DNA from: Halorientalis sp. LT38
GTDB lineage: Archaea; Halobacteriota; Halobacteria; Halobacteriales; Haloarculaceae
DNA length: 64,000 nucleotides
NCBI RefSeq assembly: GCF_037031225.1
Contig: NZ_JAYEZN010000001.1
Span: forward strand, 2,294,001 to 2,358,000
Direction of reading: 5' to 3'
A program made the position numbers and the translations under genes. Numbering within the stretch: the first letter of the stretch is position 1; each line of letters opens with the position of its first letter. This document shows positions 44,536-50,346 of the stretch, in pieces. Under the pieces are notes generated by a model that worked only from the letters and a program-made list of their open reading frames with translations, ran no database searches and had not been told where the DNA came from.

Positions 44536-44543
44536 CGTTAAAC
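44536..44543 (+). promoter_or_regulatory. Promoter box of the trpS leader ORF
   Basis: CCGTTAAA lies about 31 bases before the ATG at 44571, the usual distance for a leaderless haloarchaeal transcript. It is preceded by GGAAA, a purine-rich BRE-like stretch. It is far (185 bases) from the trpS start codon. Confidence 0.6.
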
Positions 44544-44570: not shown

Positions 44571-44645
44571 ATGGCCGCTCCCTGGCGATGGCGCTGGCGC
44601 GACGCGACGGGAGCGGACAGTCTCGCGACCCGGTCCGTGCGATGA
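44571..44645 (+). CDS. Tryptophan-rich leader peptide upstream of trpS
   Basis: A 24-residue ORF beginning MAAP and continuing WRWRWRD: three TGG codons alternate with Arg codons at positions 5, 7 and 9. It starts about 31 bases downstream of a CCGTTAAA promoter box, so its ATG is probably the first codon of the mRNA. It ends in TGA at 44643-44645, 78 bases before trpS. The chance of three near-adjacent Trp codons directly before the tryptophanyl-tRNA synthetase gene is low, and a similar Phe-rich ORF precedes pheS. The role as a sensor of charged tRNA-Trp is inferred by analogy with bacterial leader peptides; translation is not shown. Confidence 0.7.
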   Translation: MAAPWRWRWRDATGADSLATRSVR

Positions 44646-44653
44646 CCACGGGC
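44633..44653 (+). promoter_or_regulatory. Hairpin enclosing the leader stop codon
   Basis: GTCCGTG at 44633-44639 pairs with CACGGGC at 44647-44653 (seven pairs including one G-U). The seven-base loop contains the TGA stop. A ribosome at the stop codon would melt it, and one stalled at the Trp codons would not. A competing pairing of CCGGTC (44630-44635) with GACCGG (44683-44688) is possible. Confidence 0.45.
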
Positions 44654-44681
44654 GCGGGCCGCGACGCTCACTCCGCTTTTT
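44654..44681 (+). terminator. Possible attenuator: short GC stem followed by T5
   Basis: GCGG at 44654-44657 can pair with CCGC at 44673-44676, directly followed by TTTTT at 44677-44681, between the leader stop and trpS. The stem is only four pairs, so the call rests mainly on the T-run. The same T-run could instead be a second promoter box, since it lies 43-47 bases before the trpS ATG. Confidence 0.35.
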
Positions 44682-44723
44682 CGACCGGTCCCGGCGAGAA
44701 ACGACACCCCTGATTCGACACAG

Positions 44724-46334
44724 ATGACACGCGAACCCGACACCGACGCTGACGAACCGACTCCGGACGACCGACCAGCGGCCGATGCCGACCGTGCAGT
44801 GACGGACGGCGGGGCTGCGGGCGCCGACGACGTGACCCTCGACCCGTGGGGCTCCTCGACGGTCTCCGACTACCGCAAACTGTTCGAGGAGTTCGGCATC
44901 GAGGGGTTCGACGACGTGCTGGACGAGGTGCCCGACCCCCACTACCTGATGCGCCGGGGGGTCATCTTCGGCCACCGGGACTACCGCCCCGTCGCGCGAG
45001 CGATGCGCGACGACGAGCCCTGGGCCGCCCTCTCGGGGTTCATGCCAACCGGCGACCCCCACATCGGGCACAAGATGGTCTTCGACGAGATCATCTGGCA
45101 CCAGCAGCAGGGCGGGGATGCCTACGCCCTGATCGCGGATCTGGAGGCCCACAGCGCCCGCGGGCTCTCGTGGGACGAGATCGACGAGCACACCCGGAAC
45201 TACGTCCTGAGTTTGCTCGCGCTGGGGTTCGACCCCAAGGAGGGCGACCTCTACCGCCAGTCTACCAACCGCGAGGTGCAGGATCTGGCCTTCGAACTGG
45301 GTATCGAGGCGAACTTCTCGGAGTTCCAGGCCATCTACGGCTTCGACGGGGAGACGGACGTCTCGCACATGCAGTCGGTCGTCACGCAGATGGCCGACAT
45401 CCTCTATCCCCAGCTCGACGAGCCCAAACCCACGGTGATCCCCGTCGGGCCGGACCAGGACCCGCACATGCGCTTCGCCCGGGACCTGTCGACCCGGATG
45501 CGCTTCTTCAAGGTGACCGACGCGTTCGCGAGCTTCGAGCTGACCGACGCCGAGCGGGAACTCGTGGCGATCGCCTACGACCACCGCGAGGAGTTCGCGG
45601 CGGACCCGGACACGCCCCGGTGTGGCGAGGCCGCCGCGTGGCTGGCCGACTACGAGACGAACGCGACCGACGCCCGCGACGCCGCCGTCGAGAAACTCGA
45701 CAACGCGGGGAAGGAACCGCTCCGGCCCAGGGTGCGCTTCCTCGACCGCAACGCGACCGACGCGGCGTTCGACGCCCTGATCGAGGCCATCGACGGCGAG
45801 AAGCGCCGGTACGAGGGCCACGTCGACGCCTTCGACCTCGATCACGACGTGGCCGAGGAACTGGCCCGCGACGTCGAGGTCGACAACGGGGGATACGGAT
45901 TCCAGCCGCCGTCCTCGATCTACCACCGGTTCATGACCGGCCTGACCGGTGGCAAGATGTCATCCTCGATCCCGGCGAGTCACATCAGCCTGCTCGACGA
46001 CCCCGAGGAGGGCTACGACAAGGTGAAATCCGCGACGACGGGCGGCCGCGAGACCGCCGAGGAACAGCGCGAGAAGGGTGGAAGGGCCGACGAGTGTCCG
46101 GTGTACGAACTGTACGCCTACCTGCTCTCCGGTGACGACGACGAGTTCGCGAAGGAGGTCTACGACGAGTGTGTCGGCGGCGAGCGCCTCTGTGGCGGCT
46201 GCAAGGAACAGGCCGCCGAGCTGATGGAAGAGTTCCTCGAGGACCACCAGGAGAAACGCGCGGAGTGGGAGGCGAAGCTCGAGGAACTGGACTTCGAGAT
46301 CGACTCCGACCGCAAGCGGGCCGGCGGCGACTGA
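44724..46334 (+). CDS. trpS: Tryptophanyl-tRNA synthetase
   Basis: 536 residues. It charges tRNA-Trp. An acidic extension of about 40 residues precedes the class Ic catalytic core. The HIGH-type motif is PTGDPHIGH (108-116) and the KMSKS-type motif KMSSS (411-415). TrpRS-typical QMADILYPQLDEPKPTVIPVGPDQDPHMRFARDL is present. The C-terminus has a CGGCKEQAAELMEEF element seen in archaeal/eukaryotic TrpRS. No Shine-Dalgarno sequence precedes the ATG. The 24-codon Trp-rich ORF upstream suggests regulation by tryptophan supply. Confidence 0.95.
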   Translation: MTREPDTDADEPTPDDRPAADADRAVTDGGAAGADDVTLDPWGSSTVSDYRKLFEEFGIEGFDDVLDEVPDPHYLMRRGVIFGHRDYRPVARAMRDDEPWAALSGFMPTGDPHIGHKMVFDEIIWHQQQGGDAYALIADLEAHSARGLSWDEIDEHTRNYVLSLLALGFDPKEGDLYRQSTNREVQDLAFELGIEANFSEFQAIYGFDGETDVSHMQSVVTQMADILYPQLDEPKPTVIPVGPDQDPHMRFARDLSTRMRFFKVTDAFASFELTDAERELVAIAYDHREEFAADPDTPRCGEAAAWLADYETNATDARDAAVEKLDNAGKEPLRPRVRFLDRNATDAAFDALIEAIDGEKRRYEGHVDAFDLDHDVAEELARDVEVDNGGYGFQPPSSIYHRFMTGLTGGKMSSSIPASHISLLDDPEEGYDKVKSATTGGRETAEEQREKGGRADECPVYELYAYLLSGDDDEFAKEVYDECVGGERLCGGCKEQAAELMEEFLEDHQEKRAEWEAKLEELDFEIDSDRKRAGGD

Positions 46335-46346
46335 CTCTCGGGTTCT

Positions 46347-46772
46347 TCAGAGTCCTTCAAGCGCGGCGACGAGCACCTCGGCGGTCGCCTCCGTCGCGGC
46401 CTCGCCCCCGTCGGTCGTGACCTCGATCACGTCGCCGCCCGCGTCGACAAGGACGGAGGCCGTCTCGCCGCTGCCCTGGATCGCCACGTCGACGGCATCC
46501 CCGTCGGCGTCGACGACGGTGTCGGGCTCGACGCCGTCGAGGATCCCGTCCGGGCGCACGGCGGTCTCCACGTCGAGTTCGCCCGCGTCCGGAACAGCGA
46601 CGCCGTCGAGCGTCTCCTCGACGATCCCCGGGTCCAGCCCGAACCGTTCGAGCCCGTTTCCCAGTTCCATCGCCACGTCCCCGAGCGGCGTCGGTCCGAG
46701 CGCCGATAATCCATCGAGAAGGCCGAAGACGTCGGTGCTCCCCCGCGACCGCTCGTCGCGTCTGTCGGTCAT
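46347..46772 (-). CDS. Acidic protein of unknown function
   Basis: 141 residues, MTDRRDERSRGSTDVFGLLDGL. A TATAAT box about 28-30 bases upstream on the minus strand supports a leaderless start at 46770-46772. The protein is acidic, with two beta-rich halves (LDVETAVRPDGILDGVEPDTVVDADGDAVDVAIQG, SVLVDAGGDVIEVTTDGGE). No known family is recognised. It is divergent from the pheS leader; their promoters lie about 30 bases apart. Confidence 0.65.
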   Translation of the reverse strand: MTDRRDERSRGSTDVFGLLDGLSALGPTPLGDVAMELGNGLERFGLDPGIVEETLDGVAVPDAGELDVETAVRPDGILDGVEPDTVVDADGDAVDVAIQGSGETASVLVDAGGDVIEVTTDGGEAATEATAEVLVAALEGL

Positions 46773-46829
46773 CTGTACCTGTAGCTACACGTTCGGGGGT
46801 ATAATTCTTCCGTCGCCGTGCCAGGGCGG

Positions 46830-46839
46830 TACGCTTTTG
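46830..46839 (+). promoter_or_regulatory. Promoter box of the pheS leader ORF
   Basis: TACGCTTTTG lies 30 bases before the ATG at 46864. The same GCTTTTG word precedes the histidine kinase gene at 13184 by about 30 bases. The spacing predicts a leaderless transcript starting at the leader ORF. Confidence 0.55.
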
Positions 46840-46863
46840 CCGACACCTGCCCATCGCTCGCAC

Positions 46864-46944
46864 ATGGCATCCGAACCCCAGTGCCGGTGCGTCGCTCGCC
46901 AGGGAGTCCCGAGAGCGGGGTTCGGCTTCTTCTTCGCCGCCTGA
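46864..46944 (+). CDS. Phenylalanine-rich leader peptide upstream of pheS
   Basis: A 26-residue ORF beginning MASEPQCRC and ending AGFGFFFAA: four Phe codons (TTC) in five positions (20, 22, 23, 24) just before the TGA at 46942-46944. It starts 30 bases after a T-rich promoter box and ends 145 bases before pheS. The Phe cluster before the phenylalanyl-tRNA synthetase genes mirrors the E. coli pheM leader of pheST, and the Trp-rich ORF before trpS in this same window. Function as an attenuator or stalling peptide is inference; the ORF is too short for statistical gene finding. Confidence 0.7.
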   Translation: MASEPQCRCVARQGVPRAGFGFFFAA

Positions 46945-46952
46945 GTCGGCGG
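46937..46952 (+). promoter_or_regulatory. Hairpin enclosing the pheS leader stop codon
   Basis: CCGCC at 46937-46941 pairs with GGCGG at 46948-46952. The six-base loop TGAGTC contains the stop codon, the same placement as in the trpS leader. The remaining 137 bases to pheS are GC-rich without a T-run. A CCGTTAAC box at 47043-47050 may be a second promoter 40-45 bases before pheS. Confidence 0.45.
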
Positions 46953-47089
46953 AGTTCCACCGGGGGGAGACGCCACGGGGAACGAAATCGGCTCGAGGGG
47001 GCACCGACGGGAGAGCGGCGGGACCCGAACCGCGAGTGAGAACCGTTAACTGACCGACCCGCGCGGTACGTACCAACGACTATCCACGC

Positions 47090-48601
47090 ATGAAACTGCC
47101 ACAGGCACAGGTCGCGGTCCTCGAGGCCGCGAGCGCAGACGACGAACGGACGATCGATCGGGTCGCCGACCAGGCGGGCCTCAAGCCCGAGACGGCGACG
47201 GGGGCGGCCTTCGAACTCGAGGCGGCCGGCCTGCTCACCGTCACCGAGCGCACGACCAGCGACGTCGAACTGACCGAGGAGGCAGAGACCTACGTCGAGC
47301 ACGGCCTGCCGGAACTGCGGCTCTACGAGGCGGCCGTCGACGCGGGGGCCGACGAGGGGCCCGTGCAGATGGGGCAGGTCATCGGTGCCTCCGGGCTGGA
47401 GGGCGACGCCGTCGACATCGCGCTGTCGAACTACGCCCGGAAGGGCTACGGCGAGATCGACAGCGGCGAGATCACGGCCGACCCCAACGCTGACCCCGAG
47501 GCCGACGACGAGGCGACGACGCTCGACGCGCTGGCCGAGGGCGCGGGCGCGTACGCGCGAGAAACCGCCCTGAAAGATCTGGACAACCGCGGGCTGATCG
47601 AGCAGACCGAGACGGTGATCCGCTCGGTGACGCTGACCGACGACGGCGTCACGGCGATGATGGAGGGGGTCGAGACCGCCGAGACGGTGGGCCAGCTCAC
47701 CTCGGAGATGCTCACCAGCGGCGAGTGGGCCGAGGCCGACTTCGCGGAGTACAACGTCGAGGCCGACGCCGAACGGGTCGTCCCCGGGCGCAAGCATGCG
47801 CTGCGGGAGATGGCCGAACGGGTGAAAGACGTGCTCGTCGGGATGGGCTTTCAGGAGATGCAGGGGCCACACGTCGACGCGGACTTCTGGATCAACGACT
47901 GCCTGTTCATGCCCCAGGACCACCCGGCGCGGAACCACTGGGATCGCTTCGCCCTCGACGAACCCGAGCGGATCGACGAGTTGCCAGCGGACCTGGTCGA
48001 GCGGGTCGAGCGCGCCCACCGCGAGGGCGTCGGTCCTGACGGGGAGGGCTATCACTCCCCCTGGGACCTGGACTTCGCGAAGGCGCTGGCACTGCGCGGG
48101 CACACCACGTCGCTGACGGCTCGCCACCTCTCGGGGGAGGCCGTGGGCGAACTGGAACCGCCCCAGCGCTTCTTCTCCATCGAGAAGGCCTACCGCAACG
48201 ACACGCTGGACGCGACCCACCTGCTCGAGTTCTTCCAGATCGAGGGCTGGGTGATGGCCGAGGACCTCTCGGTGCGTGACCTGATGGGGACGTTCACCGA
48301 GTTCTACGAGCAGTTCGGGATCACGGACGTCGAGTTCAAGCCACACTACAACCCCTACACGGAGCCGAGCTTCGAGCTGTTCGGCCGCCATCCCGAGACG
48401 GGCGAGTTGATCGAGATCGGCAACTCCGGGATCTTCCGCCCGGAGATGCTGGAACCGCTGGGCGTCGACTGCGACGTGATGGCGTGGGGGCTGGCGCTCG
48501 AACGTCTGTTCATGCTCGCGACCGGCGCCGAGGACATCCGCGACGTCCACGGGACGCTCGTGGATCTCGAGTTCCTGCGCGAGGAGGAGGTGACCTACTG
48601 A
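47090..48601 (+). CDS. pheS: Phenylalanyl-tRNA synthetase alpha subunit
   Basis: 503 residues, typical of the longer archaeal/eukaryotic alpha subunit. The N-terminal about 200 residues contain winged-helix modules (KLPQAQVAVLEAASAD, ALKDLDNRGLIEQTETVIRSVTLTDDG). The class II catalytic core carries MGFQEMQGPHVDADFWINDCLFMPQDHPAR, FQIEGWVM, EIGNSGIFRPEMLEPLG and WGLALERLFML. With PheT it forms an alpha2-beta2 enzyme that charges tRNA-Phe. Its TGA overlaps the pheT ATG by one base, so the two are translationally coupled. Confidence 0.95.
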   Translation: MKLPQAQVAVLEAASADDERTIDRVADQAGLKPETATGAAFELEAAGLLTVTERTTSDVELTEEAETYVEHGLPELRLYEAAVDAGADEGPVQMGQVIGASGLEGDAVDIALSNYARKGYGEIDSGEITADPNADPEADDEATTLDALAEGAGAYARETALKDLDNRGLIEQTETVIRSVTLTDDGVTAMMEGVETAETVGQLTSEMLTSGEWAEADFAEYNVEADAERVVPGRKHALREMAERVKDVLVGMGFQEMQGPHVDADFWINDCLFMPQDHPARNHWDRFALDEPERIDELPADLVERVERAHREGVGPDGEGYHSPWDLDFAKALALRGHTTSLTARHLSGEAVGELEPPQRFFSIEKAYRNDTLDATHLLEFFQIEGWVMAEDLSVRDLMGTFTEFYEQFGITDVEFKPHYNPYTEPSFELFGRHPETGELIEIGNSGIFRPEMLEPLGVDCDVMAWGLALERLFMLATGAEDIRDVHGTLVDLEFLREEEVTY

Positions 48602-50346
48602 TGCCGACCGTCGAGATCGACCCCGACGAACTGCGCCACCTGACCGGCCACGACGAGAAAGACGACGAGGAACTGAAGGAGGATCTGTTCGGCCTGGGCC
48701 TCGAGTTCGAGGGCGAGACCGACGACGGCGAGTTCGAACTGGAGTTCGCCCCCGACCGGCTCGATCGCCTCTCCGTCGAGGGCGTGGCGCGCTCGCTGCG
48801 CTACCAGTACGGCGACGACCGCGGCGTCTACGTGCCGAACGTCAACGACGCCGAGTGGACGATCCGGGTCGAGGACGTGCCCGAGGACCGCCCGTACGTC
48901 ACCGGTGCCATCGTCCGCGGGCTGGACATGGACGAAGAGTCGCTCGACTCGCTGATCCAGCTCCAGGAGAAACTCCACGCGACGATGGGCCGCCAGCGCG
49001 TGAAGGGGGCCATCGGCGTCCACGACCTGACGATGCTGAAAGGGGAGACGCTGGACCCCGACGACGACGCCGCGAAGTCGGTCACCTACACCGGCGTCGA
49101 CGGCGACGAAGAGACGATGGTCCCCCTCGAGGGCGACCAGGAACTCACCCTGAACGAGGTGCTCGACGTCCACCACATCGGCCAGGAGTACGCGGACCTG
49201 GTCGAAGAGTACGAATCGATGCCGGCCATCTACGACGAGGTCGGGCTGTTCTCGTTCCCGCCGGTTGTCAACGGCCGCCGGACCGAGGTCGACGAGGGCT
49301 CCCGTGACCTCTTCGTCGAGATGACGGGGACCGACCAGTGGACGGTCGACAAGATGCTGGCGATCGTCTGCTACGCCCTGGACGCCCGGGGCGGCCGGAT
49401 CGAAGAGATACGCGTCGAGTACACCGACGACGCGCCCGAGACTCCAGCGGCCGGGAGCGAACTCGTCCGGCCGGACCTGGCGACGAAGGCGAAAACCGTC
49501 GAACACGACGCGGTCGAGACGATGCTGGGCGTCGACCTCGGCGAGCGCGACGTGGTCGACCTGATCGAGCGTGCGGGCATGGACGCCGAGACCACGGAGA
49601 CAGACGACGGCGCGGCGGCCTACCGGGTCGACGTGCCGCCCTACCGGGTCGACGTCCTCCACCCGGTCGACCTGATCGACGACGTGGGTCGGGCCTACGG
49701 GTTCAACGAACTCGAACCCCGGTATCCGGACGTCTCGACGGTCGGCGGTCGCCACGAGCGCTCGCGGCTGGAAAACGCCGTCCGCGAGGCGCTGGTCGGG
49801 CAGGGGTTCGAGGACCTGCTGAACTTCCACCTGATCGACGAGGAACAGAACTACGAACGGCTCGAAATCGAACCGGGCTCGGACGCGTTCGGCGGCGGCG
49901 AGGCCGTCACGATCGAACAGCCCTACAGCGAGGACTTCACGATGGTCCGCTCGTGGGCGCTGCCCTCGATCATGATGGTTCTGGAGAACAACACGCACCG
50001 CGCGTACCCGCAGGACCTCGCGGAGGTGGGCTTCTCGGCCCACGTGGACGAATCCGAGAACACGAAGGTTGCGGAACGGCGGACCGTCGCGGCGGCGCTG
50101 TGTCACGCCGGCGCTTCCTACGAGGACGCCAAGGCGGCGCTGTCGGCGCTGGTCGAGGCCTTCGACGCGGACCTCGAGACGCCGGCGACCGACCACCCGT
50201 CGTTCATCGACGGGCGGACCGCGAGCGTCGTCATCGACGGCGAGGCCGTCGGGGTCGTCGGCGAGATCCACCCCGAGGTCATCGTCGAACACGACGTCGA
50301 ACTGCCGATCGCGGCGTTCGAGTTCGAACTGGCGGCGCTGCGGTAG
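48601..50346 (+). CDS. pheT: Phenylalanyl-tRNA synthetase beta subunit
   Basis: 581 residues from the ATG at 48601, which shares one base with the pheS stop; the upstream frame extension is pheS sequence in another frame. Visible parts are the N-terminal LFGLGLEFEGETDDGEFELEFAPDRLDRLSVEGVARSL, the B3/B4 core, a B5 domain (about 300-370) and a catalytic-like class II fold (YGFNELEPRYPDVSTVGG, EQPYSEDFTMVRSWALPSIMMVLENN). The beta subunit binds tRNA and edits Tyr-tRNA-Phe. It converges on the histidine kinase gene ten bases downstream. Confidence 0.95.
   Translation: MPTVEIDPDELRHLTGHDEKDDEELKEDLFGLGLEFEGETDDGEFELEFAPDRLDRLSVEGVARSLRYQYGDDRGVYVPNVNDAEWTIRVEDVPEDRPYVTGAIVRGLDMDEESLDSLIQLQEKLHATMGRQRVKGAIGVHDLTMLKGETLDPDDDAAKSVTYTGVDGDEETMVPLEGDQELTLNEVLDVHHIGQEYADLVEEYESMPAIYDEVGLFSFPPVVNGRRTEVDEGSRDLFVEMTGTDQWTVDKMLAIVCYALDARGGRIEEIRVEYTDDAPETPAAGSELVRPDLATKAKTVEHDAVETMLGVDLGERDVVDLIERAGMDAETTETDDGAAAYRVDVPPYRVDVLHPVDLIDDVGRAYGFNELEPRYPDVSTVGGRHERSRLENAVREALVGQGFEDLLNFHLIDEEQNYERLEIEPGSDAFGGGEAVTIEQPYSEDFTMVRSWALPSIMMVLENNTHRAYPQDLAEVGFSAHVDESENTKVAERRTVAAALCHAGASYEDAKAALSALVEAFDADLETPATDHPSFIDGRTASVVIDGEAVGVVGEIHPEVIVEHDVELPIAAFEFELAALR

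Follow-up and report, generated by a model that had tools for sequence, protein, structure and literature searches.

A phenylalanine-rich leader peptide and a conserved RNA stem-loop upstream of pheST in haloarchaea, a probable sensor of phenylalanine supply

The pheST locus and its leader ORF

The sequence analysed here, referred to as the window, is a 64,000 nt stretch of the Halorientalis sp. LT38 genome that encodes trpS followed by pheS and pheT, the genes for the two subunits of phenylalanyl-tRNA synthetase (Table 1). A short ORF with Phe codons at 46921-46923, 46927-46929, 46930-46932, and 46933-46935 lies upstream of pheS, and 145 nt separate its stop codon from the pheS ATG at 47090. 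An earlier note made from the sequence had pointed to this ORF as a Phe-rich leader; its description, with GFGFFF just before the stop, is exact, and the identities of pheS and pheT were confirmed by NCBIfam. Between trpS and the leader there is also an ORF of 141 residues on the minus strand (46347-46772), divergent from pheS, for which searches of Pfam and NCBIfam gave no match. The leader is the sole ATG-initiated ORF with at least four Phe among its last eight residues on either strand of the 64 kb, and no such ORF arose when the upstream stretch was shuffled 3000 times with dinucleotides preserved. Because it is also conserved across the class Halobacteria, we conclude that the leader ORF is not a product of chance.

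Table 1. Features of the trpS-pheST region, in positions of the window
Feature	Position	Strand	Description
Trp leader ORF before trpS	44571-44645	+	MAAPWRWRWRDATGADSLATRSVR; W-rich (WRWRW), leaderless; GTTAAA at 44537-44542
Conserved trpS leader hairpin	44609-44682	+	GGAGCGGACAGT...GCTCACTCCGCTTTTT; terminator-like, stop codon near tip, U-run at end
trpS	44724-46334	+	Upstream of pheST
P1, TATA-like box of the leaderless promoter for the leader ORF	46830-46839	+	TACGCTTTTG; from box-ATG spacing and consensus
Phe leader peptide ORF	46864-46944	+	MASEPQCRCVARQGVPRAGFGFFFAA; 26 codons, ATG at 46864, TGA at 46942-46944
Phe codon cluster GFGFFF, predicted stall site	46921-46935	+	Conserved; TTT-enriched across leaders, TTC only in the window
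Possible hairpin 1:2 across the stop codon	46937-46952	+	CCGCC-TGAGTC-GGCGG; overlaps 5' arm of stem A
Conserved RNA stem-loop	46941-46996	+	Stem A, internal loop GGA (46951-46953)/GAAA (46984-46987), stem B; from covariation
P2, promoter of pheS itself	47040-47079	+	GAACCGTTAACTGACCGACC; box 47040-47059, predicted start CAACGA at ~47074; near-leaderless
pheS, phenylalanyl-tRNA synthetase alpha subunit	47090-48601	+	NCBIfam NF003210, E=8.8e-179
pheT, phenylalanyl-tRNA synthetase beta subunit	48601-50346	+	NCBIfam TIGR00471, E=3.3e-123

The earlier note had named a lack of Phe-rich ORFs upstream of pheS in close relatives as the result that would speak against a leader. With the pheS product as query, we fetched 80 named haloarchaeal pheS loci, and in 70 of them the corresponding position is occupied by a leader ORF of 24-48 residues that follows the pattern M-A-x-E-[PS]-variable-G-F-[GD]-F-[FV]-F. 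Among 51 aligned leaders, M1, G19, and F20 do not vary, and E4 and F22 are conserved at 90% or more. Genera with a leader include Halorientalis, Haloarcula, Natrinema, Natrialba, Haladaptatus, Halorussus, Halobacterium, and Halosimplex. A profile of the 51 leaders matched 168 of 292 genomes of the class, belonging to 51 of 76 genera, at E<=0.05, the weakest of these matches being uncertain. One family (f4) had weak profile scores, yet its pheS regions contain clear leaders on reading. The leader is spread over most of the sampled families of the class Halobacteria. Within the genome of LT38 it occurs as a single copy (E 1.4e-12, the next match having E=1.04), and no similar leaders were seen at other synthetase genes of the tRNA-synt_1 and tRNA-synt_2b families, the starts of which were set crudely. 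Elsewhere in the phylum, in 29 regions upstream of pheS from other classes, we found neither a convincing Phe leader nor the stem-loop described below; two of them have weak F-containing frames that lack the motif. No Pfam match was obtained for the window leader, and no NCBIfam match for it or for any of the 51 aligned leaders.

Codon changes across the leaders, counted over 32 independent pairs, comprise 74 synonymous and 146 nonsynonymous changes, and the middle of the peptide evolves freely. Changes in the GFxFFF core are mostly at the third position (31 vs. 14 and 12). A free middle together with third-position changes in the core is what is predicted for a leader whose codons are read. 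The leader has also been lost several times, twice within Halorientalis, and is therefore dispensable. Two of the eight Halorientalis genomes (L086 and L088) have lost both the Phe leader and the stem-loop while keeping the pheS promoter. At two other loci the leader ORF is damaged, by loss of start and stop codons in L006 and by a frameshift in L078, and the stem-loop is retained; this state represents either decay in progress, an assembly error, or an alternative use.

A conserved stem-loop and two promoters

At nearly every locus the same irregular hairpin directly follows the leader stop codon. Stem A has the form GGYCGG...CCGRCC, and stem B varies in both sequence and length. Across 50 aligned sequences, the internal loop is invariant at GAAA and at two of its three GGA positions, and 12 of 13 base pairs show compensatory changes in which both sides are altered. 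The same alignment has 88.9% of its cells paired, compared with 70.4% in shuffles, and a covariation score of 0.528, compared with 0.213; none of 500 shuffles reached the real alignment on any measure. Sliding the two strands by one base reduced pairing to 39-44%. The minimum free energy (MFE) of the whole window leader taken alone is no better than that of shuffles (z 0.29), and in DNA this rich in GC only comparative evidence is informative on structure.

A covariance model matched the window stem-loop with 33.8 bits and identified the stem-loop in most leader-bearing loci as well as in the damaged-leader loci L006 and L078. Leader and stem-loop are both gone in L007, L013, L017, L044, L066, L067, L075, L086, L088, L133, L139, L143, and L147, and L069 has a covariance-model match at chance level only. 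The two elements are mostly kept and lost together, with the exception of L175 and L176, which have a leader without a stem-loop. We also searched the LT38 genome for further copies of the stem-loop; the next matches inspected scored at most 28.5 bits, seemingly lie inside long open frames, and were read as chance.

No match to Rfam 15, including its T-box, riboswitch, and attenuator leader families, was found up to E=1 for positions 46700-47200, and on the comparative evidence the GGA/GAAA stem-loop appears to be a new conserved RNA motif. G.A pairs may form within its internal loop. A K-turn, the target of L7Ae, consists of a 3-nt bulge beside tandem sheared G.A pairs. We rejected this reading of the GGA/GAAA element, as the loop is symmetric, mostly 4x4 or 5x5, and most sequences lack a 3-nt bulge on one side. 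We also considered, and set aside, pairing between the Gly-Phe codons (GGNTTC) and GAAACC, which is imperfect in most species.

The earlier note had placed a promoter-like box at leaderless spacing before the ORF, and this bears out: in the window TTTTG begins at 46835, 29 nt before the ATG, a spacing shared by relatives. A T-rich box begins 29-30 nt before the ATG in approximately 87 of 94 unique leaders, and the P1 consensus CAACG[CT]TTTTNG is visible in most families. Because of this fixed distance, the leader mRNA is expected to be leaderless. A second promoter, P2, is represented by the element GAACCGNTAACTGACC. Its TAAC box and CAA triplet are always 27 nt apart, while the distance to the pheS ATG ranges between 29 and 47 nt (101 loci), a combination that marks a TATA box and a start site. 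The CAA triplet has an A in 97 of 97 cases at one position. P2 is also present in most loci that lack a leader. With a promoter of its own before pheS, the leader is an added input; P2 could leave the leader irrelevant to most pheST expression. The pheS promoter element GGAACCGNTAACTGACC, with its CAACGA start, is conserved far beyond what a TATA box needs, and it is possible that a putative regulator binds at 47040-47079.

The Phe leaders of L175 (MLAESTSGAQHAGDQSICPGFGFFFGA) and L176 end only 35-37 nt before pheS, and both loci lack the stem-loop and the P2 box. These loci represent a minimal form of the leader system. Since the leader adjoins pheS and there is no second promoter, the transcript from P1 must carry pheS as well, and L175 and L176 thus provide the strongest sequence evidence for a leader and pheS on one transcript.

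A tryptophan-rich leader before trpS

The window contains a second candidate leader before trpS (Table 1). W-rich ORFs stand before trpS in all eight Halorientalis genomes and in further genera, and an HMM of the Trp leader matched 48 of 194 genomes at E<=0.05, with the weakest matches being uncertain. In Halobacterium-like genomes this type of leader precedes a second trpS paralogue and has a CAACGTTTTTCG box upstream. A second trpS paralogue preceded by the Trp leader type was also observed in other haloarchaeal families (L270, L272, L273, L275, and L279). RNAalifold predicted the trpS leader hairpin at -17.4 kcal/mol for 14 sequences and -10.2 kcal/mol for 18 sequences. Judging by these features, the region 44571-44682 is probably a Trp-sensing leader of trpS. 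It shares with the pheST leader a leaderless P1, a cluster of cognate codons, a conserved hairpin, and a downstream synthetase gene, but its hairpin has a U-run and a stop codon near the tip, and no GGA/GAAA loop. The presence of a Phe leader at pheS and a Trp leader at trpS makes coincidence very unlikely and suggests a general haloarchaeal device.

A proposed translational sensor of charged tRNA-Phe

We consider it likely that the region 46830-47090 acts in cis as a regulatory leader of pheST, using translation to sense charged tRNA-Phe. Support is good for the sensing step, and we infer that the leader is translated, that ribosomes stall on it, the direction of the response, and an output step of attenuation, processing, or protein binding. 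The last Phe codon ends, at the median, 18 nt (sd 2.3) upstream of the loop anchor and approximately 12 nt upstream of stem A. This is about as far as a ribosome holding that codon in its A site would reach, going by general ribosome footprints. As the median distance to stem A is 12 nt, a ribosome stalled there would leave stem A free. In hairpin 1:2 the final leader codons would pair, over the stop codon, with the 5' arm of stem A and so compete for that arm; the hairpin can be drawn in many but not all lineages (for example, GCCCGG-TGAT-CCGGGC). Its mean energy is -7.3, compared with -6.5 when region 1 is swapped among species (control sd 0.32) and -6.2 when it is shuffled, which is only modestly better than the controls. 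Across 106 loci, T-runs between the leader stop and pheS reach no more than 1-3 nt, and because the spacer has no U-tract after the stem-loop, a classical intrinsic terminator is missing.

This layout is consistent with an attenuator that tips towards stem A on starvation. Transcription from P1 would give a leaderless mRNA with the leader peptide as its first codons, so that a ribosome would reach GFGFFF just before the stop. With ample Phe-tRNA, the ribosome would run to the stop codon, where its footprint would cover the 5' arm of stem A, and once it had left the stop, hairpin 1:2 could take that arm. With scarce Phe-tRNA, the ribosome would stall on the Phe codons and cover region 1, leaving stem A free. 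The stem-loop with its GGA/GAAA loop could then form and would raise transcription into the pheST message, or its survival or translation, adding to constitutive expression from P2. Stem A may act through another form of termination, through processing of the RNA, or through a protein that recognises the GGA/GAAA loop, and we favour the protein; a putative factor that reads the invariant loop is likely.

Several other explanations of the same features have to be weighed. The stem-loop could be the primary element, with phenylalanyl-tRNA synthetase or another RNA-binding protein binding GGA/GAAA to autoregulate pheST and the ORF only setting ribosome access. An invariant internal loop between freely variable stems is typical of a protein-binding site, and the stem-loop outlives an intact ORF in L006 and L078, but the Phe cluster at the end of the ORF and the leaders of L175 and L176, which have no stem-loop, would be left unexplained, so we regard this account as rather unlikely. 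Still less probable is that the ORF encodes a microprotein that acts itself, for instance in trans or as an arrest peptide in the nascent chain, with GFGFFF being read as peptide rather than as codons. The variable middle and length of the peptide, the lack of a protein family, its occurrence strictly with pheS, and the matching Trp leader of trpS all weigh against this, even though conservation of G-F-[GD]-F-[FV]-F extends past the number of Phe residues and the N-terminus MAxE[PS] is conserved as well.

Codon choice raises a further alternative, namely that the Phe codons mainly supply a T-rich tract, a U-run terminator or pause site in the leader DNA or RNA, with the peptide as a by-product. 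TTT accounts for 30% of Phe codons in the cluster (75/248) compared with 5% in pheS (93/1959), in sequences that are related and not independent. In addition, the Val of GFxFVF is encoded by GTT in 13 of 13 cases, and 71 of 106 leaders have T-runs of at least four. The remaining 35, however, have runs of just 2-3, the window among them with a Phe cluster composed of TTC only, and the reading frame and the GFxF amino acids are conserved regardless. We find this explanation very improbable. A preference for TTT may make decoding slower or provide a T-rich tract for pausing, but it does not replace the cognate-codon explanation, as the window cluster has only TTC. We retain the sensing of charged tRNA-Phe by translation as our preferred reading.

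Leader peptides of this kind have counterparts in bacteria, and E. coli pheM, the leader of the pheST operon, likewise contains Phe codons. The earlier note had drawn this parallel, and it stands in the sense that both leaders may work alike, with Phe codons placed before pheST. It fails as a claim of homology or identical machinery because there is no shared sequence family, no downstream U-tract terminator, a different conserved stem-loop, and a second promoter for pheS. With pheM and the enterobacterial pheL, trpL, and hisL, the haloarchaeal leader shares a short cognate-codon ORF directly before the operon and RNA structures beside the stop codon that could be switched when a ribosome stalls; it differs from all of them in its leaderless promoter, its GGA/GAAA stem-loop, and the second promoter before pheS, as well as in the features that set it apart from pheM. 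E. coli thrS is autoregulated in another way, the synthetase binding a tRNA-like structure in its own mRNA. Here, too, a structured leader precedes a synthetase gene, and the haloarchaeal GAAA resembles part of the tRNA-Phe anticodon loop, but it faces GGA in an internal loop rather than standing in a hairpin loop and lies downstream of a cognate-codon ORF. By analogy, the haloarchaeal pheST leader would work like a bacterial attenuator leader, although it has no such terminator and fits no known family. Regulatory uORFs also stand before other biosynthetic or stress operons, as with a conserved uORF in the Corynebacterium ilvBNC mRNA (PMC10272879) and a uORF that is reported to sense ribosome-targeting antibiotics via ribosome stalling at specific codons (PMC12121999). 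Both are bacterial and involve other genes and structures.

None of the open-access papers searched reports a leader peptide upstream of archaeal pheS or trpS, and the main texts of the haloarchaeal transcriptome and translatome papers that we searched do not mention pheS. To our knowledge, the control of operons by cognate-codon leader peptides is established in bacteria and not in archaea. As the Phe-rich peptide and the RNA stem-loop are conserved together before pheST, haloarchaea probably gauge their phenylalanine supply by ribosome stalling, a strategy known until now from bacteria. We lean towards the broader view that haloarchaeal aminoacyl-tRNA synthetase genes, at least pheST and trpS, carry ribosome-sensing leader peptides on leaderless mRNAs, that these are the first in Archaea, and that the GGA/GAAA motif at pheST is read by some factor. 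With the new RNA motif defined, its binding partner can be sought. A class-wide pheST leader and stem-loop, together with the trpS leader, would show that the coupling of ribosome and RNA polymerase in archaea is tight enough to serve as an amino-acid sensor, and the question of coupling is directly testable in genetically tractable haloarchaea.
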